Shown here: positions 6,540-62,753 of the stretch, in pieces | Numbering within the stretch: the stretch's first letter is position 1 | How the letters are laid out: each line of letters opens with the position of its first letter | Assembly (NCBI RefSeq): GCF_964340395.1 | Contig: NC_135562.1 | Span: 17,365,985-17,429,984, forward strand | Direction: 5' to 3' | DNA: 64,000 nt | Source of the DNA: Glandiceps talaboti | Lineage: Eukaryota; Hemichordata; Enteropneusta; Spengelidae | The notes under the pieces: model-generated | Seen by the model: only the letters and a program-made list of their open reading frames with translations | What the model was told of the DNA's origin: nothing | Database searches by the model: none | Program-made: the position numbers and the translations under genes

Positions 6540-7215
6540 GAATAACACCTCAAGAAACATCCCCACAAAGTTTCAACCCTATTCACCATGCAATTTCAAG
6601 ATATAGCGGTAGGTTTTTGACCAATCTGATTAAAATCCGATGTAGATGTCGGCTAATCGTTCATTGTTATTTTACCTTCGTTATTTTGCCTGAATTGACC
6701 TTCTTTGTACATGTTTACATTTTTTAGCCTGATCGCCTCCTATCAGGCTAAAAACGTAAACAGGTACTACGAAGGTCAATTCAGGCAAAATAACGAAGGT
6801 AAGATAGCAATGTATGACTAGCCGACATCTACATCGGATTTTAAGCAGATTGGTTTTTGACCAAAATTGAAAATTTGGACCCATTTTGCATATCGCTGAT
6901 GGTATTGTCACGCTTCTTCTACACATGCCTAGATGCATCCCCGTTAAATTTCAGCCCAATCTGCTTGGCATTTTTTGAATTACTGATTTCTAACCAAAAG
7001 GCACATTTTTATACCTAATTAGCACATGACAGATGGGATGATCGTATTGTGAACAATTCTTAATCTAAACACCACTAAGAATGTTCCAATACATTTTCAA
7101 CCCAATCTGCTCAATTACTTTGGAATTACAGATTTTTGACAAAAAAGGACATTTTAGCCCTAATTTGTGTATCACTGTTGAAATCATCATGCAATGTCTT
7201 TTTATATGTAATTGA
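6540..7215. repeat. Degenerate tandem array, unit about 140 bp, interrupted by a MITE
   Basis: Three diverged units share, in order: CCCCRYNAARTTTCARCCC, ...TTTTTGACC or TTTCTAACC, an AARGGCAYATTTT-like word, ...GCATATCNCTGATGG and a GTATTGTCA-like tail. The CAACCC/CAGCCC anchor sits at 6574, 6952 and 7098. Removing the 240 bp of MITE plus target duplication from the first interval gives periods of 138 and 146 bp. It looks like an ancient satellite or a tandem repeat within a larger mobile element. Confidence 0.65.
6623..6851. mobile_element. 229-bp foldback MITE with an 11-bp target duplication
   Basis: The termini are AATCTGATTAAAATCCGATG on the left and the near-perfect reverse complement on the right. 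Arms of about 110 bp meet at a TTTTTAGCCTGATCG / CAGGCTAAAAA core. The flanks carry the direct repeat GGTTTTTGACC (6612-6622 and 6852-6862). Long arms and a 9-11 bp duplication suggest a Mutator-like origin. A half copy lies at 31648-31762. There is no coding capacity, so it would need a transposase supplied in trans. Confidence 0.85.
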
Positions 7216-11647: not shown

Positions 11648-11915
11648 AATCCCCAAATTAAATGAAACTTACCTGAAAGTTGAAGTTTGGTAGGGATCTA
11701 TGTAGTCATCTTTAACACGAAAGGGATCACATGAGATTACACTGCGCATGTGTAGCTTCAGTCTTTAAAGATTGAATGAGCATGTCTAAAAAAACCATCT
11801 TCAAGGGAGGGTTAGTCTGGGTGATGGGTATGTGATCCCATTCGTGTTAAAGATGACTACATAGAATCCTTACCAAACTTCAACTTCAAGGTAGGTTTCG
11901 TTTAATTTGGGGATT
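11648..11915. mobile_element. 268-bp foldback MITE
   Basis: Left arm AATCCCCAAATTAAATGAAAC pairs with right arm GTTTCGTTTAATTTGGGGATT. Pairing continues through CTTTAACACGAAAGGGATCACA and TGTGATCCCATTCGTGTTAAAG, giving arms of about 85 bp around a 95-bp centre. There is no ORF. Target duplication is unclear. Confidence 0.75.
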
Positions 11916-12068
11916 TTATTACGTCATCACACTCCATGAATCACATGACACTTTAAAGCAAAGACATGCGAATGAAACGACACATTTCAAGGTGCTTTAA
12001 ATACTCAATAAATAATATAATAGTACACAGTTCACTTCTGTACGAATAAATAAACTTACATCAACACA

Positions 12069-12070
12069 CA

Positions 12071-12148
<78 letters not shown>
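12069..12148. repeat. (CT)n microsatellite
   Basis: About 80 bp of CT dinucleotides preceded by a short CA run. On the minus strand it directly follows the DIRS recombinase codons for SRAKQ, so it marks where the 3' end of that element is lost. Confidence 0.95.
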
Positions 12149-12152
<4 letters not shown>

Positions 12153-12205
12153 GGCTCTTGAAGTAACGGCAGCTCTTACACTGTGAGCTTTAAATACATC
12201 AGTAT
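12149..12205 (-). pseudogene. DIRS tyrosine recombinase, C-terminal fragment beyond the Academ insertion
   Basis: The minus strand encodes TDVFKAHSVRAAVTSRAKQ. HSxRAA is the HxxR box of the catalytic domain of DIRS-group tyrosine recombinases. It joins in frame to the recombinase part at 18759 and above once the 6550-bp insertion and one copy of its 3-bp duplication are removed. The part that would carry the nucleophilic Tyr is missing, replaced by the (CT)n tract. Confidence 0.8.
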
Positions 12206-12946
12206 TAGTCCATGAGCCAGACCCTGATTTTTAGCCAATTGGTACAAAATTGAGGTACCAAACGAAACATTACTTTTCTAAAACTATTTTTTCTGTAGAT
12301 TTCAAAAATGCTTGGTGGACATCTGTATTTGATAGCTTTCTAGTAGTAATTTTCGTTCAAAGTTTGATAATACAATGATAAAAAATTGAATTATCTGAGT
12401 GAGGTTTGGGAATGAGAACTAATAATTGAGTCGGTTTATGTACTTTAACATGTATGAAATAATAAAATAATTGTATAAAACTAAGTTACTATTCAAATAA
12501 TATAATGTGTCACCATTGAATATTTTTTTTTTGCATATCAATTAGCTGATTTGCATACATTTGCCATTTTGAAAATTTCCAATTTCCGGAAGTTGCTTGA
12601 AATATAACAAAAAAATTGGCATTTATGCTCCATACAATGATTGAAAACCCTGTATTTATGAATAATTGATATCATAACTATCTCCTGGTGAATTATGGTG
12701 CTAGTGATGATAAATTATGAAGGTAGATGAACAGTCAAGGTGGTGTAATCAGTTACGCTGAAAAAATACCCGATATACTAAGCTTTTCACATATGCCATC
12801 TCAAGTATATTGGTTGTGATGCAGCTTGTACTTTAAGGCTCATTATATATATCGTATATGCTTGTTAAGAAGATCAAATCAGTACTTGATTGATGTGGAA
12901 ATATTACCCACAATGCAATGCTACCTGAATTTTCAGGGGCAGCTGT

Positions 12947-13132
12947 TTAAGTAGATTCATCTTCATCCTCCTCGCCATCACTGATATCCTGTGATGAATC
13001 TTCTTCATCACTATCAATCATATTATTGCAGTCCTGGAGTGTGCATTCCTCTGTACATTTTAGACCATTAGATAAACACTGGCAAGCTGGGAGTGCACAA
13101 GTACGCCGACATTTGCAAGAAATGAATTCCAA
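12947..13132 (-). pseudogene. Academ-like transposase, C-terminal CXC zinc-binding tail (frameshifted off)
   Basis: Encodes FISCKCRRTCALPACQCLS followed by NGLKCTEECTLQDCNN, a tesmin/TSO1-like CXC arrangement of eight or more cysteines, then an acidic tail ending EEDEDEST. It belongs to the same protein as the ORF ending at 13140, but a one-base shift near 13150 puts it in a different frame. In the family this module follows a PAP-rich linker, also visible here. Presumed role: DNA end binding. Confidence 0.7.
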
Positions 13133-13139
13133 GAGAACT

Positions 13140-14486
13140 TCAGGTGCTGGGGCCTGCCATCCATTTCATATCCAGCTTTCCATCTTTCCCCTTTATCCAA
13201 CCATGGTGTTCTGGAGATGGAATATCATGAGCTGCAATCAAACTACGTCTCCACACAGCACTTTGGTTGAGGCTGTCTTCACATGGAGGCAGCTGTCCAG
13301 ACTCCACTGTCCCTTTCTTTGCGCACCATAACTTGTATCGAAGCTCATTAACATGATATATTTGAGAACGAGCAGCATACAATTTGCATGTGAATTCGTG
13401 TAGATGGCCGAATAGGTCTTGAGACATATGCCACTCTTGACCAAGTGTTGTGAAGGCATCTTTAAAAGCTTGGCTTTGGTGAATAAGTTTCAGTCCTTTG
13501 AGTTTGCCTTGCCCAGAGAAAGCACTGACTGTATCACATCCAGTGAAAGCGTGTAGACCTAAAAGAGCAGAGCAGACATCATGTCCCAATGTTGAAGCCA
13601 ACTTGTCAATACTGATGATCCTAGTCCTGTTCTTTGTTCCACACAATATATTAATTTCACATTCTATTTTGGAACTGAAGGCTAGGCATAATACCATCAC
13701 ATCCGTATCTTCAGCTACCAGTGTCACTGACTTGTAACCAGAGTTTGCTGCATGTTGGGCATGTAAAAGTAAACGTGTGTCTGCTTCTTCATGTGTGGAC
13801 TGAAGAGCTTCAATTTCGTGACCTTGGTCACTGGATATCATTACACATTTGCTCCCATAGGTTATGTATACTTCTTTCTGACCTAACTGTTCTTGTCTAC
13901 CTTTCCAGTCCTCTGCAAAGAAGTGGATCAGTTTTTCCTTGGTCACAGGACAGGACAAGGGTCGCCTCCAGTTCTTCACTCTGTGAGCTGCAAGTATTCT
14001 GGAAAATGAGATCCCATCTTTTGCACCCCTTTTCACTCGCTCTGCTTCCTTGATTGATGAATTCTTATATACATCAAAGACTACATCTATTCTACTACTT
14101 GTGGGCCATTTTCGTACAGCAGTTGTAAACAGCTGTTCAGATAACTCTGCAAATGTATGGTTATCACCATGTAGTTTCTGTACAAGTGCCATGCCATCAA
14201 TGATAGTGGCTGATGGTAAGGAAACTTCTGTCTCTGATGCCACTAGTTTCTCAAGATGTCTGGCCAATGCTGATTTGTTTGTCTTCTTTAGTGTACCATC
14301 ACAGTTTGCTAATGACCAGGGCATAGGTCCGAGAGGGTGTTGCAACTGGACTACTTCTTGTATATCCATCTTCCGAGTTGTAGCTATCAGAAGCATTCGA
14401 CCAAAAAGATGATGATCTGCTTTAAGAATGGTTTCTCTATTAGATTTGGTTTTGGTTTTTGCCTTCAAGTTGCTGAAAGACTTCAA
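13140..14486 (-). pseudogene. Academ-like transposase, XPG/FEN-like nuclease region
   Basis: 448 residues from the first Met; the frame really continues upstream to about 14636. Motifs: VDVVFDVYKNSSIKEAE, LQSTHEEADTRLLLHA near residue 230, LVAEDTDVMVLCLAF near 260 and LHAFTGCDTVSAFSGQGK near 315. The acidic clusters (EEADT, EDTD) and the following GCDxxxAFxGxGK resemble the metal-binding and H3TH-like parts of XPG/FEN nucleases. Homologous long proteins are common as uncharacterised entries in cnidarian, molluscan and fish genomes. The frame closes at 13140 because of an indel before the CXC tail. Confidence 0.7.
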
Positions 14487-14632
14487 CTTTAATTTCTGAA
14501 GTCTGTCATAGAATGAAGAGCCTGTCTTCAGTCTTGTTTCAAGGAACTCATGATAGGCAACCTCTCCTTGTTCTTGAGCTGTGAGCAGATCCTTTGTTAC
14601 ATCTGAAGGTGCAGCAATACCTGATGAAATGC

Positions 14633-15055
14633 TCAGCAGTGCGCATCACCAGTATTTGATTCAAAAGGATTTATCCAATTATTTTCGAGAATATCAACAA
14701 CTGATTGTACGTCTTCCTCATCCTTCTGGATACGTGATGCACCTAAATCAGGATGGCTGACATCATGTTTCTGCAAATTAGTTAAATTGCGAAGCTGCCT
14801 AAGACACACACTACGATATTCAGCTGTTAGATAGTACTTGGATACTGCATTTGGTTTGAGGCTGAAGCCCTTAATAGTACCACCAGGGGTCTGTGTATCT
14901 CTATTTACAGTCTCCTCAATGGTCTGGTCTACAGGTATTCTGCCAAATGGGTTGCTGCCACCCTTCTGAACTGTAAATCCACCATTCATTAAGTGTTGAC
15001 ACACAAATGGATGATCCTCTGATAGCCTTGTCATTTGTGCATGATATACAGACAA
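14633..15055 (-). pseudogene. Academ-like transposase, middle segment
   Basis: 140 residues starting MSVYHAQMTRLSEDHPFVCQ, with GGSNPFGRIPVDQTIEETVN, a conserved stretch of this transposase family. It overlaps the end of the 900-residue ORF by about 25 bp in another frame and closes near 14636 (GDAHC, stop). One base shifted, the downstream frame reads LLSISSGIAAPSDVTKD and leads into the nuclease region. Two more frameshifts are therefore needed to join the three parts. Confidence 0.7.
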
Positions 15056-17733
15056 TTCAAATACCGGGCATAGTTTTGTTTGTCATAAGCAAAACACCAT
15101 GGTATAAGCATGCGGATAGCATACAGATGAAGTTGCCAGTTCCCCTCTCTAGAAGCTCTCAGCAGTGCAGGCAAAATATCTACAATATCTATGTATGATA
15201 CCCAAAAAGAAGCCACAGGTCCTTTCCAATTTCGTAACTGCTTCAGATACTCATCAAACAAGACCAAGATACTTGTATGTGATATATCTTGGACGACAGC
15301 TGTAAGCGAAAGATGATCTGGTTTACTGCTGACTTCATTGACTTGGATTATACTATCCTGTAACTGTGGCAGTTCATTGGCATGATATTCTTCTATCCAT
15401 GGCTGGAATCCCTTCCATAACAGTCTAAGGAGACCTTCATAAATGATTTTGTGAAGTCTCACCCAACGGTTGTATTGCTTTCCATCAAGAACATGGCTAA
15501 TTGATCCTTCAGCAATCACACCAGCTTCTACTGCAAGATCACACAGACCTCCATCTCTGAAACGCTTACCAATTATTGAGAGAAGATTGCATATTGTGTG
15601 AAAGGCACCCATTCTGAGAACAACATCACTAAATTGGTCCTGGTTCATCCATACAATTTCTGCTGCTTTTGCATATAGAGCCTGATCAAACACGCAGACA
15701 ATTTCAGGAAGTTGTAGTGTATTCATTATTTTTTTTGTTTGGTCCAGTATTTGATACACTGTTGACATCTGAGTAGCTGGGGCATTAATGGTTGGAAGAT
15801 AACCAATTGTGTCTTGATTGACTGCTTTATGATCATTGGTCTGTATGTTAAAGCCAGTCCATGAACTGACAATCTGATTGGATGTGTTGCTCTGACGTGC
15901 AAGAAACCAAACAATATTTTTATATCTGGCAGAAGTTGCTTCCCTTATCTGTTCTCCAGTAAGGTGGAGCGGGGTGATTGGTGGGGGACTTCTTCTTTCC
16001 CCAGAGTTGTAGTGGGGTAGTATACTAGGATATGGAAGAATAGATCGTCTTTTGTCCTTCTGCATCTGGGCTTGCTGTGGTGGTAGTTGCGCTGCAGACA
16101 CTTGTGGCTGTACAATTATACCATTGACACGATGAGAGGTTCCACAACCACTGAGGGTTTCTTCCTGTCTGTCAATATTGTCATATGCTAACACAGTAGG
16201 AACTATAGGGTATATATTAGATGGTAGTACTACATCATTCTCATCTTGTGTTTGCAACTTCTGAATACATAAGGCTGTGTCTATCTCTTCCAATCTAGTA
16301 TATGATATGCCATGCCCATGACGATTCAAAATTCTTATGATCTCAACATTTCCAGTCAGGGTCTTCATAGCCCAGGGTAGTAGGATATGTTTAGATGTCA
16401 GTACCTTTCCAGCTGTTGCTCCATAGATAAGACCTTGAGAAAATGACCAAACCAACCTTTGGACACGGGGTGTGAAGGTAGAGGAATTGGTTTCACCCGT
16501 CAGCAGTGTTGATAGAAAGAGTTTGAGAATTGGGGGTGAATTAACATACTTGTCATCGCATGGAGATGGTAGCCAAGGTTGTTCATAATTGGCTTCCCTG
16601 ATTTCATTCCGTAGATGTAGTGCTGATTTTGAAATCAAGTGATCTAGTACCTTAGCCTGGCTGGTATAGCCATCTAGCTTCTCCTGTTTTCTGATATAAT
16701 CGCGAGCCAGATTTTCAATTGAAAGATTGTCTGGCAGTACAAGAAGTCTACCATTATCACTGGGGAATATATGGAGACTTGAACCAAATTCAGCTTCCAG
16801 ATTACGTCTCATGTGTTTCTTTGAGTGTGTCTTTACATCAGAGACACCCAAGGTATGCATGAAACAAATAAATGTATTGGTAAGATCTGTCATTCTTGCT
16901 ACATGTGGTTTTCCAATCAAGTTTGTCCTGATATAATCAAACAGTTTATTGTAGGCAGACGATTCGGACAAAGCATATGTCTCCTTATCTTCATGCTTGT
17001 GACAAGTAAATGTTATTTCTGGCCTTAGTCTGGTATAACTAATGTAGCATGATTTATGATAATGTGCCTCTGCTGCAACGATATCATGTGCTGTTAGGGC
17101 CAGTATCCGTTTGTCTAACTTCATCTCATCCTCTGTCCGCTCTTTCATTACCATTCTGGTTGCTGCATCTCGAATACTGCCGTCTGCACGCAAGTCAACA
17201 CATTGAATTATTTTTTCACGTATTCGACTACCTTTGGGATATTTGTTGGGTCGTTCGCAAAATATACACTTGGCTGGGTAAACTGTCTCCTTGTTACAAT
17301 CAGGCTGTCGTTGAGTACGTCTTAGTTCTTGACTGGAGTCAGTCGATCCAACACAGGATGCATTGGCAGCTTGTAATTTGTCCAATGACTTCTTATGTGT
17401 GAATTCTTTCCGACATTTAAGCTCATACAATATGTCAGGGATGTCATCAGTGCTTGTTTGGTATTGAAGTAATGGAGCAAACTTTCGTATTTTGGCAACA
17501 TCCAAAAGCTTAAGCCACGAAGACAAATCCTTTGGTTTAGTAAGCTCATTTCTTGGGACTTTGACGATTGCATAAAATGCATTTTTCTGTATCTTTTTTC
17601 GGTTTCTTTGCATTACTTGGCATCTCTGGATCATACTCACTATCTCCCAATTCCATGATTGGTTTTTATGTAGACCTATAACGTATATCTTTGTATATCT
17701 GGCTCTGAAACCAGGCAAAGAACGGAAACACAT
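15031..17733 (-). pseudogene. Academ-like transposase, N-terminal 900 residues
   Basis: The longest open frame in the window. A zinc-binding module near residues 155-235 shows CIFCERPNKYPKGSRIREK and later AHYHKSCYISYTR (CxxC...HxxxC). Downstream is a long helical region without motifs I recognise, including WFLARQSNTSNQIVSSWTGF and IVCVFDQALYAKAAEIVW. It ends in YARYLNCLYIMHK and a stop where the next frame takes over. The true start is uncertain; Met at residue 33 (MIQRCQ) is equally plausible. An hAT-like terminus lies just 9 bp upstream of the first Met, so the original 5' end may have been altered. Confidence 0.7.
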
Positions 17734-17741
17734 ATGCTATG

Positions 17742-17830
17742 CAGGGCTCGAAATAATGGCCATTTACTTGCCCAGGGCAAGTGATTTCAAGGCTTGGACA
17801 AGTTGTTTTGAAAAGTACTTGTTCCAAGGG
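17742..17830. mobile_element. hAT-like terminal fragment inside the Academ element
   Basis: CAGGGCTCGAAATAATGG followed by GCCCAGGGCAAGTGA matches the left terminus and subterminal motif of the 36824 hAT-like element (CAGGGCTCGAAATTC, GCCCAGGGCAGGTGA). I could not find a matching right end, so it may be truncated. Confidence 0.5.
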
Positions 17831-18740
17831 GCAAGGAGAATTTCTTATGATTATTGATCAGGGGTGTTTTTTTGCCTGTGCTGTACTTATCAAACACTGC
17901 ACATGGATAGGACTTTGGATACAATGTATAACCAAGGTGCCAACAAGTCTGGAAAATTATAACATTGTAGCGATATTGAGAAGACGTCTACAGAGAGAAT
18001 AACGTAGACTGTACATTCATCAATTGAAAGCATAGGCTTTAGAGTTCTCAGCTATTATAATATCAAATAAAAATCCTATTCTTCAGCCATTAACACATTA
18101 AGCCACTATATGAATTGCAATTGCAATTGCAATTCAGTTTAATATGCAAAGCAGAGAAATAACATGTAACATAGGTCGAAAACATTTATTGGAGGATGAA
18201 TATATGGTCTTGGAGGATCTACTGTAACCTTCATTCATTTTTGCACTTATTTTCATAATATTAATCTTATAAAGGATTTGTAAAATAGAGTCTATGTAAT
18301 CCTTACCTTAGTGTGATGTTATCTTTGAAAGAAAAACAAAGCCAACATGTCACTTTGATCACAAAAATGTACTATTATCCAAAGACAGGAAACTAGCACA
18401 TCCTTCCTTAGCGCATAATAAAAACGGAGGAAATAGCGCCCTCTATAGTCGATATCTTGTAGTATGTCATAAAACTCCCTATTATACAAACGATAATATC
18501 TACCAGTGTAGGTAATAACTGCAAAAGCCCAATAAATCTGGTAGGTAATGCCAAAATGAACACAATATAGGGACCATTTATTAATAATTGTGGAGTACTT
18601 GTACCTAATCTAAAAATCCGTATAACTTCTGAAAGCTACTCATTTGGAATGTCCACCAAGCATTTTTAACATTGCAACATCATTATTAGTGACGGGTAAA
18701 AATATCTATTGGTACCTCATTTTGGTACCAATCAACCCCC
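17831..18740. other. Academ 5' non-coding region (minus-strand sense)
   Basis: No open frame of note. It contains an AATTGCAATTGCAATTGC palindromic repeat near 18116-18135 and the inner part of the long imperfect inverted repeat (about 18600-18740). On the minus strand this is where the transposase promoter would lie. Confidence 0.5.
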
Positions 18741-18758
18741 CTGGCTCATGGACTATAT

Positions 18759-19740
18759 CTATTCCTGATCTAGTCATAACTTCACGAAGCCACAGACTTA
18801 CTGAAGCCTTCGATACAGCTTTATATGGCTTAACGTAACTTATAAGAAGTTGGTATTCATTAATGCGAGTACTCTAAGTACGTAATAAATATTCTTTCAA
18901 TGTATCACAGACACATATTCGTCTGTCTGGTTCATATGTATGCAAGACTACTACTGGGTTAGTAAATCCAGGTCGACTCTATTTGAGTAAAGTGTCATAA
19001 GTAAAGGTATATGAACCTTCATCCTGTGTCATGTATTTCAAGTTTAACAGCTGCAACGGCTGTCCACGTGCAGCTGTTACTAAAGCTAGTAACATAACTA
19101 GTTTCAAGGTAAGTGCCTTTAAGGTAAGTTCAGTTACTGGTGAACAGGTCTTGAGGTAATGCAATACCTTGCTAACATCCCAACACATGACGGAATCTGG
19201 AAACGGTAGGTCTAAGGTTAAAAACTCCTTTCATGAATCTAACAACAAGTGGGTGTGCCCCAATTGTTCTTTGCTGATTAGTTGAACACAATGCAGATAA
19301 CGCTGATCTTGCTGTGTTTAAGGCACTGTGACGTATTACAGAATTGAATAGTTCAGTTGAAAGTCCAGTACTTGTGTTACAGCTGGATGAAGTGGATCTG
19401 TCTTGATTTTACTACAAAACTGTAGCCACCTTCTGGTGTACGTTCCATGCTGTTTCTTGGTGCCCTGTCTCCAAGATGCCATGATGATCGAGGTTGCCCC
19501 TCGAGATATGTTTTGCTTTTCAAGTGATTGCCTGACACAAGACAAGCTATCAGTTGCAGTTTCTTCCGCAATGGGTGAAGTCTCTGAGAATTTGGAAACC
19601 TCAACAGGTTGTCCATTCTTGGTAGTAGAAGTGGATGATCCACTAACATTTGCAATAACTGTGTGAACCACGGTTGTGTTGGCCACAGTGGTGTGATCAG
19701 TATACCAGTTGCTTGGTCCACTGCAACTTTCTGTGTACAT
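18759..19740 (-). pseudogene. DIRS tyrosine recombinase, N-terminal and core part
   Basis: Starts within the RT-RH gene in another frame (MYTESCSGPSNWYTDH at 19740). The N-terminal DNA-binding part shows GTYTRRWLQFCSKIKTDP; after a frameshift near 19350 comes ELFNSVIRHSALNTARSALS. After another near 19215 comes CWDVSKVLHYLKTCSPVTEL and TAARGQPLQLLNLKYM, whose Arg is the first catalytic Arg. Two in-frame stops follow (after TYDTLLK and after KEYLLRT) before KPYKAVSKASVSLWLREVM. The Academ insertion cuts it after RSGID. Length and layout otherwise match DIRS recombinases. Confidence 0.8.
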
Positions 19741-21095
19741 CTTCCGATGACACTAAAGGGACGAAATGCATAAAAATAATGAGACTTCCAGTTAATTGTA
19801 AATGCATCTATATGCACTGCATCTGGGTCAGGTTTCCATGACACAAAGTGACGGAGCTGATTGTTCAATCTACTAGCAAACAAATCAATAGTGGGGAGCC
19901 CCCATTCCTTCATAATGAGTGCAAATATAGATGGATTAAGTTGCCACTCAGTTTGCGCATTGAATTGCCTTGATTCATAATCTATATTTAGTGACTCTGG
20001 TAAATGTGATGCTGTAAGCCATATGCCCCTTTCTTTGCACCAAAGCCAAATTGTTTTAGCAATATCTTTGCATTCTACTGACCGGACACCACCCATATTA
20101 TTAATATAGGCCACTGCTGTAGTGTTGTCACACAACACTTTCACATACTTGTTCATAAATGTTTGTTCGAAACACCTCAAAGCAAAGTATACTGCCAGTA
20201 ATTCTAAATAGTTAATATGGTGGTTGGCCTCCCAAGCCACCCATCTGCCCCCACCCTTTTTTCCTTCACAGCTGACTCCCCAGCCTAATGTGGAGGCATC
20301 ACTACAAATTGTGATGTCTGAATTTCCTTTACTGATGGAACGTCTTTCATGAGGCAGGTTTCGGACCCACCAGTCCAGATCTTTTTTCATATTAGAGGTT
20401 ATGGCCATACAAGCCTCAAAATTACCATTTTGCCATTGCAATGCTTTAATTTTTGCCATCTCGAGAGATCGGCAGTACAATGGTCCAAACTCGACACCAA
20501 GTATACTGGAAATCATAAGGCCTATGATCTTGGCAAACATTCGTATTGATTCGCTATCTTTTCTCGTTAACATATTACATTCAGTAATCATTTTCTCAAT
20601 TTTACCTTGTGTCAAGGTGACAGTCATTGATACAGAGTCAATATCAAACCCAAGAAAGGTAAGTTTTTGGGTAGGCACCAGTACAGATTTATCTGGGTGA
20701 TGAATAAACCCAAGCTGTGTCAATAGATTCACAGTATCAGAAATGTTTTGTTTACATTCATTGACACCACTCCCTACAAGAAGAGAATCATCACTATAGC
20801 CCATACTAGTATAGCCCAATTTCCTTAATGTAGCATACATTGGTTTTAGGAGTTTAGTAAACATACGAGGGGCTGATGCAAGCCCATTTGGCAAGCAGGT
20901 ATACTGAAACAATTGTCCTTTCCATAAGTATTTCTGGTGTTCCTTGGCTATGGGAACAGTATAATATGCATCTTTGAGATCAACAGATGCCATGTAGCAA
21001 CCAGGTGTTATCAGCCTTAAAGCTGTTTCTAATGTGTCCATTTTGAAATGATGATATTGCACATGATTGTTCAAACATTTCAGGTTAAGAATCAT
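19377..21095 (-). pseudogene. DIRS reverse transcriptase-RNase H
   Basis: 572 residues open from MILNLKCLNNHVQYHHFKM. RT motifs: VDLKDAYYTVPI near residue 40, LPNGLASAPRMFTKL near 68 and the catalytic MGYSDDSLLVG near 100. RNase H motifs: ICSDASTLGWGVSCEG near 265, ELLAVYFALRCFE and CDNTTAVAYINNMGG near 345. Upstream sequence (EFISPIFAVPK, 21140 region) is in another frame, separated by what looks like a 4-base deletion near 21110. The N-terminal half of the RT start is therefore encoded by the preceding ORF. Confidence 0.85.
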
Positions 21096-22612: not shown

Positions 22613-22920
22613 GTCATTGAAAAAAATTAATATGTTAGAAAATTTAGCATTGCATGAGATAGCACTTGATATCACCTTCAATATTGAATGTCTACACTTT
22701 CATTTATGTATTAAAATGGAAGTGTGTACGTTTGTATGTACCTATTTAGTGAAGCATAAAAACACTACTCAAGATCAATTTGATACACCCTGAATTACTC
22801 TTATACTCCAAGTTGTTCACACACACACACTTACACACACACATATGTATACATACATACATACATTTTAGCACTGTGGAAACAGAAACAGGTTCAGTGT
22901 GTAATTACCATCAAGGATAC

Positions 22921-22995
<75 letters not shown>
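22921..22995. repeat. (AT)n microsatellite, left of the palindrome
   Basis: 75 bp of alternating AT directly abutting the palindromic element at 22996. A CA and ATAC microsatellite lies just upstream (about 22818-22865). Confidence 0.95.
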
Positions 22996-22998
<3 letters not shown>

Positions 22999-23244
22999 GT
23001 TTTGAAAATTTGAACCAAATTATATGCTATAGACCCTACAGAACTGTTTCGTGAGGTGCGTAGTCCTCACTCATCAGGGGTAGAATGGAATATAGTATCT
23101 GCGTTTCCTTACCGTTATACTTAATACTTAAGGAAACGCAGATACTATATTCCATTCTACCCCTGATGAGTGAGGAATAAACACCTCACGAAACAGTTCT
23201 GTAGGGTCTATAGCATATAATTTGGTTCAAATTTTCAAAACCTG
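22996..23244. mobile_element. 249-bp near-perfect palindrome with CAGG...CCTG ends
   Basis: The left end CAGGTTTTGAAAATTTGAACC pairs with the right end, and complementarity continues with only a handful of mismatches to the centre near 23120. Terminal CAG...CTG suggests an hAT-like origin, and TATATA flanks both sides. Arm identity is much higher than in the other foldback elements here, implying recent origin or arm homogenisation. Confidence 0.85.
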
Positions 23245-23305
23245 TATATAATTCGCTCTACTACCCGTATTGAGCACTTTTATGTGGTTTTATCTACATC
23301 CAGTC

Positions 23306-23308
<3 letters not shown>

Positions 23309-23372
<64 letters not shown>
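23309..23372. repeat. (AT)n microsatellite, right of the palindrome
   Basis: About 60 bp of alternating AT with one TT interruption. A further short AT run is at about 23397-23410. Confidence 0.95.
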
Positions 23373-25409: not shown

Positions 25410-40084
<14,675 letters not shown>

Positions 40085-45051: not shown

Positions 45052-45429
45052 GGCCCAACAAAAAGAAAAATTGTTTGCTTCCGATTACCCGACCCCACCT
45101 AGTTTTTCACTGCCAACCCTAAACTTTTTTACATATTCGAGAGAAAAAAGTAAAATCGAAAAAATTGTGAAGTCTCACAAGAAATAGTGGATGCGGAAAC
45201 TGACATCAACTTAAAAAGATAATGTAAAACTGTTCTTCCAATCTGTAATGGCTGTACATCTGATGAGAAGAAACCAATAACACAGAGACCATATGGAAAA
45301 CAACGGTAAACATAACTACCTGAACTAGACACTCACACATGAAAAAAAAAATCCCAAACAATTCTACCTATCCCACCTATTCAAAAATTGAGTGTAATCA
45401 AAACTACACAAAATTGTTCTTAGGCCTAA
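45052..45429. mobile_element. MITE family 2, copy 2
   Basis: Interior matches the 39361 copy (TTGTGAAGTCTCACAAGAAA, TCTTCCAATCTGTAATGGC); right end TTCTTAGGCCTAA. The left terminus is diverged (GGGCCCAACAAAAAG). Confidence 0.8.
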
Positions 45430-51588: not shown

Positions 51589-51958
51589 TAGGCCTACAAA
51601 AAAACTGTTTCGTTCCCGGTTACCCAAACCCACCTATTTTTTCACACCGACGTTAAACTTTCTTTTACATATTCGAGAAAAACAAATAAAATCACGAAAA
51701 TTGTGAAGTCTGGCAAGAAATAGTGGATGTGGAAACTGACATTAACTTAAAAAGACAACATAAAACTGTTCTTCCAATCTGTAATGGCTGTACATCTGAT
51801 GAGAAGAAACCACTAATGCAGACACCATATGGAAAACAATGGAAAACATATATCTACCTGAATTAGACACTCACACATGACAAAAAAGGGAAAATCTTCC
51901 TTCCCCACCTATTCGAAAATTGAACGTAATAGGAACCACACAACTTTATTTTAGGCAT
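51589..51958. mobile_element. MITE family 2, copy 3
   Basis: Begins TAGGCCTACAAAAAAACTG, interior TCTTCCAATCTGTAATGGC, ends TTTTAGGCATA. Best preserved left end of the family. Confidence 0.8.
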
Positions 51959-52145
51959 ACGTAAGATATGTATTAAGTTAAGTACTTAATATTCAAACAT
52001 ACCATATTTCTACCATACTGTCTTAAACTCTTACGTCATAGCGAATTGTCAATTAATGTACAATTATAAACGGATGGGTTTTAACTTCTTAAGTAGATAG
52101 TGTGATGACATCAGTTAGGATATTGGAGTGTAAAATTACTTACTT

Positions 52146-58859: not shown

Positions 58860-59215
58860 GATACAACCCAGCCCATAAACCCAAGAAACTGCACCTGGCC
58901 CACTGACCTGCCCAATTCAACCCAGCCCATCAACCCACCCAATTCTACCCAGCCCATCAACCCACCGAACAAACTCAACCCATCCAATCAACCCACCCAA
59001 TTCAACCCAGCCCATCAACCCAACAAACTCAACCTGGCCCACCAACCCACCCAATTCAACCCAGCCCATCAAGTTCAACCCACACAATTCATCCCAGCCC
59101 ATCAACCCACCCAACAAGCTCAACCCATCCCATCAACCCACCCAATTCAACCCAGCCCATCAACCCAACAGACTCAACCTGGCCCACCAACATACCAAAC
59201 ACATCTTCTCATCCC
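58860..59215. repeat. Minisatellite, AACCCACCCAATTCAACCC unit of about 28 bp
   Basis: Twelve or so diverged units built from CCCACCCAATTCAACCCAGC and CCATCAA, with higher-order alternation (AACAAACTCAACC variants). The 138-codon open frame across it is an artefact of a period near a multiple of three. Confidence 0.93.
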
Positions 59216-59794
59216 ATCCACACCAGCCATGCAATCTATCCACAACTCAACCTACATGTACATGTAGTACATATACAATTTTATGTATTGAAGGTTGAAC
59301 TTTGATATTTAGAAACTACAGTTTGCCTTGAGTATTTGCTCCTGTTTTGATACCAATCTGGTACCAACTAAAGCAAACTGATATAAGATATACAAAAAAA
59401 AATCATGTTATCAACAGAGAGCTCAGAAATCACAAGAGTGTGTCATTTAGGGTGAATGTTCGTTGCCTGCAGCAATTTTGCAAGATTTATTTTTAGTTTG
59501 TGTAAAGCAATCCTGACTTATTATGAGATCGTGATGCCTGTATTGTGTAGGCTGTAATTTCATTTCAACTACACCTGACTGCCTGTCGCCACACTATTAT
59601 ACTGAAAATAAACATTCATTATATCTAAATACAGTTTACTCCTTTCTCTACCGTATGGCTTTTTTGTGGCTTGATCATAGAGAGGGGTACAAAAGGGAGA
59701 TTTTTTTTGTATTTGTGTATATAAAATATTGCATAATGCTTTCATTGAAATATAATACCATACCTGCAGACATTTTACAGTAATTCCTAAGATA

Positions 59795-60110
59795 AATTGC
59801 GTGGTTCCGATTACACTCAATTTTAGAATAGGTGGGGTAGGTAGATTTTCATTTTTTAAATTTTTTTTCATGTGTAAGTCACTAAGTCAGGTGTGTCTAC
59901 TTCAGGTAGTTATGTTTTCCATTGTTTTCCATATGTTCTCTGTGTTATTGGTTTCTTCTCATCAGATGTACAGCTATTACAATTTGGAAGAACAGTTTAA
60001 TTTTATATTGTCTTTTTAAATTGATGTCAGTATCTGCATCCACCATTTCGTGAGAAACTTCTGATCACAATTTTTGCGATTTTATATTTCAGTAATCACA
60101 GTTCCTATCA
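59795..60110. mobile_element. MITE family 2, copy 4, inverted
   Basis: Reverse-oriented: GGTTCCGATTACACTCAATTTT, then CATGTGTAAGTCACTAAGTCAGG, ACAGCTATTACAATTTGGAAGA and CATTTCGTGAGAAACTTC correspond to the reverse complement of the 51589 interior. Termini eroded. Confidence 0.7.
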
Positions 60111-62542: not shown

Positions 62543-62753
62543 ATTCTATTCCCAAGTATGGTCATAATAGTCAAAATAATGACGTTATTAGTTATTTACA
62601 AATATTCATAAAATACCATCACCAGTGTCTGCATTGTCATCATCACCAGAGTAAATTTTTTCCAATGCAGACACCGGTGATGAGTACTTTTCGAATATTC
62701 GTAAATACCTAATAACATCATTATTTTGTAGTATGACCATCCTTGAATAGAAT
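62543..62753. mobile_element. 211-bp foldback MITE, RAB23 intron
   Basis: ATTCTATTCCCAAGTATGGTC pairs with GACCATCCTTGAATAGAAT, continuing through GACGTTATTAGTTATTTAC / GTAAATACCTAATAACATC and ACCAGTGTCTGCATTG / CAATGCAGACACCGGT. Arms of about 95 bp. Confidence 0.8.

Follow-up and report, generated by a model that had tools for sequence, protein, structure and literature searches.

The window, that is, the whole stretch of 64,000 nucleotides that was analysed, corresponds to C15:17365985-17429984 in the 590-Mb genome of Glandiceps talaboti (47 contigs). Within it lies a DNA transposon with inverted termini, seated in a DIRS-like retrotransposon whose reverse transcriptase/RNase H frame is found next to the insertion. 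The coordinates of the element, its coding pieces and its target are collected in Table 1, together with the sites at which a target-site duplication was read.

Table 1. Features of the transposon and its target in the window, and duplication sites in the host genome.
Feature	Position	Strand	Basis or remark
Whole DNA transposon, 6550 bp	12206..18755	- (coding)	Termini, duplication, ends shared with other copies across the genome
Left terminal inverted repeat TAGTCCATGAGCCAG	12206..12220	+	15 bp, perfect; also in other copies
Right terminal inverted repeat, perfect reverse complement of TAGTCCATGAGCCAG	18741..18755	-	
Left TAT of the target-site duplication	12203..12205		Single TAT in three DIRS paralogs
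Right TAT of the target-site duplication	18756..18758		Single TAT in three DIRS paralogs
Subterminal inverted repeat, left arm	12304..12322	+	19 bp, perfect
Subterminal inverted repeat, right arm	18649..18667	-	
Probable N-terminal stretch with CxxC (CILC), different frame	17549..17656	-	Inferred from layout of 1553-aa relative
Zinc-binding-like module CIFC...HYHKSC (putative zinc binding)	17047..17268	-	Like module in 1553-aa relative
ORF piece A, 901 aa, with zinc module and N-terminal part of transposase-like core	15031..17736	-	
Candidate first catalytic Asp (YDNID)	16180..16182	-	Same in window and L041, aligned in L141
Candidate second catalytic Asp (VFDQ)	15685..15687	-	Asp in 6/6 lettered rows of alignment A3 (8 rows in total)
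ORF piece B, 149 aa, with C-terminal part of transposase-like core, including invariant DxxxE	14633..15082	-	
Candidate catalytic Glu (DQTIE)	14915..14917	-	Glu in 7/7 lettered rows of alignment A3 (8 rows in total)
ORF piece C, 501 aa between stops, carrying the nuclease	13140..14645	-	
XPG/FEN-like nuclease domain (IIDG, VFD, HEEADT, EDTD, TGCD...GK), limits approximate	13446..14213	-	Profile matches, acidic columns
CXC tail, 8 Cys, frame other than that of the nuclease	13028..13117	-	Pfam TCR E 8e-4, below Pfam cut-off
DIRS-like tyrosine recombinase region upstream of insertion, itself interrupted by stops	18756..19740	-	
Continued recombinase reading (DTDVFKAHSVRAA)	11997..12205	-	Enters CT repeat at 12073-12148
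Reverse transcriptase/RNase H ORF of target element	19377..21095	-	Pfam RVT_1 E 2.7e-14
Duplication site, window	12206-18755		3 bp, TAT
Duplication site	C16:3025710-3032079		3 bp, TTA
Duplication site	C19:23069252-23075104		3 bp, TAC
Duplication site	C7:7822916-7850635		3 bp, AAT
Duplication site	C16:10247299-10248727		3 bp, TAT
Duplication site	C6:685685-687524		3 bp, GAA
Duplication site	C8:1397875-1400603		3 bp, ATT
Duplication site	C9:20093548-20099478		4 bp, TGTA

The element is genuine, and its boundaries are precise. The perfect 15-bp inverted termini and the TAT duplication described in an earlier note on this DNA were both confirmed in the sequence, and a 19-bp subterminal inverted match lies about 100 bp inward from each end. 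Perfect inverted 15-mers spaced 3-12 kb apart are not rare in the window, where 49 were counted (6 of the 40 listed come from the element itself), so the terminal repeat alone is little proof and the proof lies in the copies across the genome. With the first 501 bases of the left end as query, 34 of the 39 matches besides the window began exactly at base 1, three more at base 2 and the remaining two at base 5, these counts being lower bounds since 40 matches were scored of 69 candidates. With the corresponding 501 bases of the right end (42 matches in total), 24 of the 41 matches besides the window stopped at base 501, 3 at base 499 and 14 short of the tip. Altogether 37/39 left ends fall at base 1-2 and 27/41 right ends within 2 bp of 18755, and although such end matches are not equivalent to independent events, some of them duplicating one insertion (e.g., three on C20 with like flanks), most other copies share the same end bases; copies ending elsewhere than 12206/18755 had been named in the earlier note as the evidence against these boundaries. 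Within the rest of the window, no second copy was detected by blastn (E ≤ 1e-3).

Target-site duplications were surveyed at the 15 sites where both ends were read, the window being one of them and the three C20 copies entering as a single site. A perfect 3-bp duplication was observed at 7 of the 15 sites, a 4-bp duplication at one, and none at the other 7, several of which have mutated tips. In the C7 copy, the two ends are separated by 27.7 kb, and their matching duplication was part of the reason for pairing them; excluding this copy leaves 6/14. By chance, a 3-bp match would be expected at about 1 site in 64, somewhat more often in A+T-rich DNA.

The target, identified as a DIRS recombinase gene in the earlier note, has the RVT_1 frame beside it; the region is presumably a tyrosine recombinase, as named from its HxxR context. 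The right flank had seven other matches in the genome, including two on C10 with 95% identity and one on C2 with 83% identity over the full query. Three DIRS paralogs (L210, L211 and L212) are continuous across the insertion point, where each has just one TAT, and since the alignments of L210 and L211, both on C10, are identical and may be one event, they perhaps represent two independent empty sites. At the empty site, the C10 paralog reads SGIDTDVFKAHSVRAAATSRAKQ, which we take to be a tyrosine-recombinase-like HxxR context. The flanks joined with one ATA read GI followed directly by DTDVFKAHSVRAA, and excision with one ATA removed had been claimed to restore the recombinase frame. The joined reading is indeed open, but it is open alike with 0, 1 or 2 copies of the duplication kept, and the target frame already carries stops further upstream in the window. 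Because a 3-bp duplication keeps the frame and these stops exist, the excision argument is weaker than claimed, and the paralogous empty sites provide the real test in its place. Chance inverted repeats are excluded by the genome copies and the empty sites, not by the repeats alone. Past SRAKQ, the recombinase reading in the window is replaced by a pure CT repeat (38 copies), where the paralog has SMVPIDHILARAGWS.

The motifs CIFC...HxxC, EEADT, EDTD and GCDTVSAFSGQGK, as well as the CXC tail, lie on the minus strand but are spread over several frames, in stop-to-stop pieces of 901, 149, 501 and 72 aa (the last at 13165-12947), and the domain order is zinc modules, transposase-like core, XPG/FEN-like nuclease and CXC tail. 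A protein combining these modules, and an ORF of 448 residues, had been described; the motifs are present, but the 448-aa ORF is only the nuclease part and the modules stand in separate frames, and that description passed over the transposase-like core that separates the zinc modules from the nuclease. In L041, all four pieces are found in one 1466-aa frame whose 5' end is cut by the contig (E 3e-94, 1e-25, 2e-77 and 2e-9; the first is the tblastn value of piece A), and in a 1553-aa relative on C4 (piece A, blastp E 6e-17) they are collinear with residues 152-878, 877-1009, 1010-1505 and 1511-1544. For the CXC tail, the Pfam TCR model stands for Tesmin/TSO1-like CXC, and its Cys pattern is like that of LIN54/Tesmin CXC domains, from which the element differs in having a single tail module, in a separate frame in the window copy. 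The sequence points clearly to three frameshifts in the window copy, near 15055, 14640 and 13150, with a fourth probably near the N terminus. Introns in place of the frameshifts were rejected, because the pieces abut or overlap within 14 bp at the three breaks and leave no room for them. The window copy is a structurally complete DNA segment whose coding frame is not intact, and the word "complete" used for it earlier applies to the boundaries and not to the coding region.

If the shifts were assembly errors, the copy would be coding-intact and autonomous. The shifts do separate long open frames (901, 149 and 501 aa) and the termini are perfect, but there are three clear shifts and a probable fourth, and recent activity of the window's own subfamily is unsupported, with the nearest left ends over the full 501 bases being 77-78% identical among the scored matches (shorter left-end matches reached 92%) and with most of the transposase region unmatched in the parts of the near copies that were read. 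On the same grounds a recent burst of this subfamily is not supported, and assembly error is considered unlikely; the copy is read as one broken by frameshifts.

The transposase-like core contains an Asp after a hydrophobic stretch, GxxH and DxxxE, which are invariant in the lettered rows of the alignment (6 or 7 of 8); in the column of the first candidate Asp, the rows other than the window, L041 and L141 are without coverage. Academ is counted among the DDD/E superfamilies in the relevant part of PMC9587614, and the same part describes a C/DxxH motif, placed after the second Asp and before the last Glu, as common to five superfamilies, Academ not being among those it names; the GxxH of the element is similar to this signature, not identical. 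The transposase alignment matched no solved transposase in the PDB (three unrelated chains were returned), and no Pfam transposase model matched the window protein. One divergent relative, L161, matched Pfam DUF6589 (E 3e-12) and the CXC model TCR (E 2e-5), both above the Pfam cut-off, and L041 matched DUF6589 weakly (E 0.003, below the cut-off), while the window pieces and L141 gave no DUF6589 match at E ≤ 1. These matches suggest that a portion of such transposases may be covered by DUF6589, a family for which a literature search returned nothing.

The nuclease alignment consisted of eight members (the window, L041 and six host-genome relatives) and was trimmed to the domain. At E ≤ 10, all 18 PDB matches of the trimmed profile were EXO1 (5; E 4e-6 to 2e-4) or FEN1 (13; E about 0.5), the 18 sequences being many entries of few proteins. 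The 17 matches of the untrimmed alignment were five EXO1 chains (best E 1e-4), ten FEN1 chains (E about 1), LIN54 (E 0.014), in keeping with the CXC tail, and an unrelated chain (E 1.3). The assignment to an XPG/FEN-like nuclease made in the earlier note is thus supported, as the profile of the region leads to XPG/FEN-family nucleases, which make up all 18 trimmed-profile matches. Six acidic columns follow in order (36, 82, 206, 230, 232 and 308 of alignment A6), all Asp save one Glu in the 6 to 8 of the 8 rows with a letter there, and we take them to correspond to the FEN1 active-site residues; the EE of EEADT is not retained in L151. In comparison with EXO1, the ordered motifs VFD...S.K..ER.RR and GCD..S...G.G align. 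By these profile matches, the nuclease region is remotely homologous to EXO1/FEN1, from which it differs in lying within a large transposon protein and in a likeness too remote for Pfam models, the Pfam XPG model giving no match in the window protein or its 7 aligned relatives (E ≤ 1). The window sequence alone matched only two unrelated PDB chains (best E 0.016), and in two AlphaFold models with mean pLDDT of 35.5 and 38.1, both below 40, the fold is not visible. Searches of PHROGs, of "phages" by tblastn and of viral contigs with the 448-aa ORF and the GCD motif gave no useful match, and a scan of viral contigs with alignment A1 returned 63 stretches, none of them a relative.

A genome search with the nuclease piece gave 28 matches including the window, four of which lie in 1553-aa open frames with 32-33% identity; of these frames, that of the C4 relative was read throughout and the other three are as reported by the search. 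The four relatives are mutually 99.4-99.8% identical over the 3' 3.56 kb and 98.7-100% identical over roughly 0.47 kb of the 5' end, and diverge past their common 3' end. With lengths of 5550, 5551, 5553 and 5553 bp, they start with TAGTGCAGCAG, have perfect 11-bp inverted termini and are flanked by 3-bp duplications (TTA, CAA, GTA and TAA), perfect in 4/4. To judge by these sequences, they show recent movement in the host genome. The window pieces are 19-37% identical to the C4 protein, and the window element is a different family having the layout and the tip TAGT in common with the 5.55-kb relatives. It is conceivable, and put forward tentatively, that the 5.55-kb family is actively moving with a transposase-like core and an XPG/FEN-like nuclease as one protein, while the window element and its shortened kin are older and possibly mobilised in trans.

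The copies across the genome also bear on whether a host or domesticated gene simply lies between chance inverted repeats. Its domains are known from cellular proteins (EXO1/FEN1-like, CXC) and Pfam recognises no transposase in it, but the common ends genome-wide, the duplications, the empty sites and the four near-identical relatives with their own duplications make this extremely improbable, and at the window locus a host gene is rejected by the paralogous empty site.

Additional divergent members of the same protein kind were observed in the host genome (L161, C7:8362772-8366722; L164; L145; L151), suggesting several Academ-like lineages. Loose pattern scans returned 14 and at least 117 loci, and among the 131 pattern-scan loci listed, the clear relatives by tblastn were L041 and L071 only. 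Both L041 (JAJRVU010000273.1; Planctomycetota MAG) and L071 (NZ_CAHJWD020000426.1) are contigs filed as bacterial that encode this animal-type transposon protein; they are probably eukaryotic contamination, and L041 is probably animal DNA.

In AcademX transposons, the nuclease is of the XPG type and is accompanied by a zinc finger of the Cys8 kind. We read the element as an AcademX-type cut-and-paste transposon inserted in a DIRS-like recombinase gene with TAT duplicated, at a probability of about 0.88, the name resting on the length of the duplication, the fused nuclease and the size, all judged against descriptions of Academ in the literature. In the part of PMC10045372 concerned, AcademX is given 3-4 bp duplications and a nuclease, and AcademH, a sister lineage of the same superfamily, 9-10 bp duplications and a helicase; the element is likewise nuclease-encoding with 3- or 4-bp duplications, and differs from AcademX in that the window copy, likened to it by description, is frameshifted. 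AcademH is ruled out by the 3-4 bp duplications and by the helicase, since the Pfam scans found no helicase catalytic family and the sole helicase-related name was a DExH14 plug domain in L151 that fell well short of the cut-off (E 0.12). The relevant section of PMC10294476 describes Academ as amplified in bivalves with a mean curated length of 5565 bp, to which the 5.55- and 6.55-kb lengths are close. The element could instead belong to a superfamily other than Academ that resembles AcademX only in its nuclease fusion and short duplication; the transposase alignment without a solved transposase and the DUF6589 match of L161, a family without a named function, are compatible with this, but the 3-bp (one 4-bp) duplications, the nuclease in place of a helicase and the two lengths fit AcademX/Academ in the parts of PMC10045372 and PMC10294476 just mentioned, and such a separate superfamily appears distinctly unlikely. 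For the name "Academ-like" given earlier, the duplications, nuclease and inverted termini stand in its favour, and an AcademX-type element is of a known and well-documented kind.

In its intact form, the AcademX-type element would encode a single protein of about 1,500 residues and, by cut-and-paste transposition, would have inserted into the DIRS-like recombinase gene with duplication of 3 bp (TAT). The N-terminal zinc modules and the C-terminal CXC domain may bind DNA, and the DDE-like core, judging from its conserved D, D and DxxxE with GxxH between, would cut and join the ends. The XPG/FEN-like nuclease may trim or resolve strands in excision or integration. With at least three shifts disrupting its frame, the window copy would now need help in trans and could be mobile only through a related protein acting on its ends. 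Large animal proteins of this kind are readily mistaken for host genes, and here boundaries, duplications and empty sites demonstrate mobility; for the window element itself, this amounts to careful annotation of a known kind, and the intact-looking relatives in the same genome open the role of the fused nuclease in transposition to direct testing.

In addition to the transposon, six self-reverse-complement matches with 70-88% identity were observed in the window (22917-23361, 26370-26706, 6620-6854, 11648-11915, 30749-31033 and 62543-62753); these long palindromes are perhaps fold-back or MITE-like elements, and the first is flanked on either side by AT repeats within the stretch, which explain part of its self-match. 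An interspersed repeat of about 300-360 bp is present in four copies with 77-82% identity (39360-39649, 45066-45428, 51600-51959 and 59786-60084), and a minisatellite array (58864-59191) lies inside a plus-strand open frame of 138 aa with a high content of Pro, Gln and Asn.
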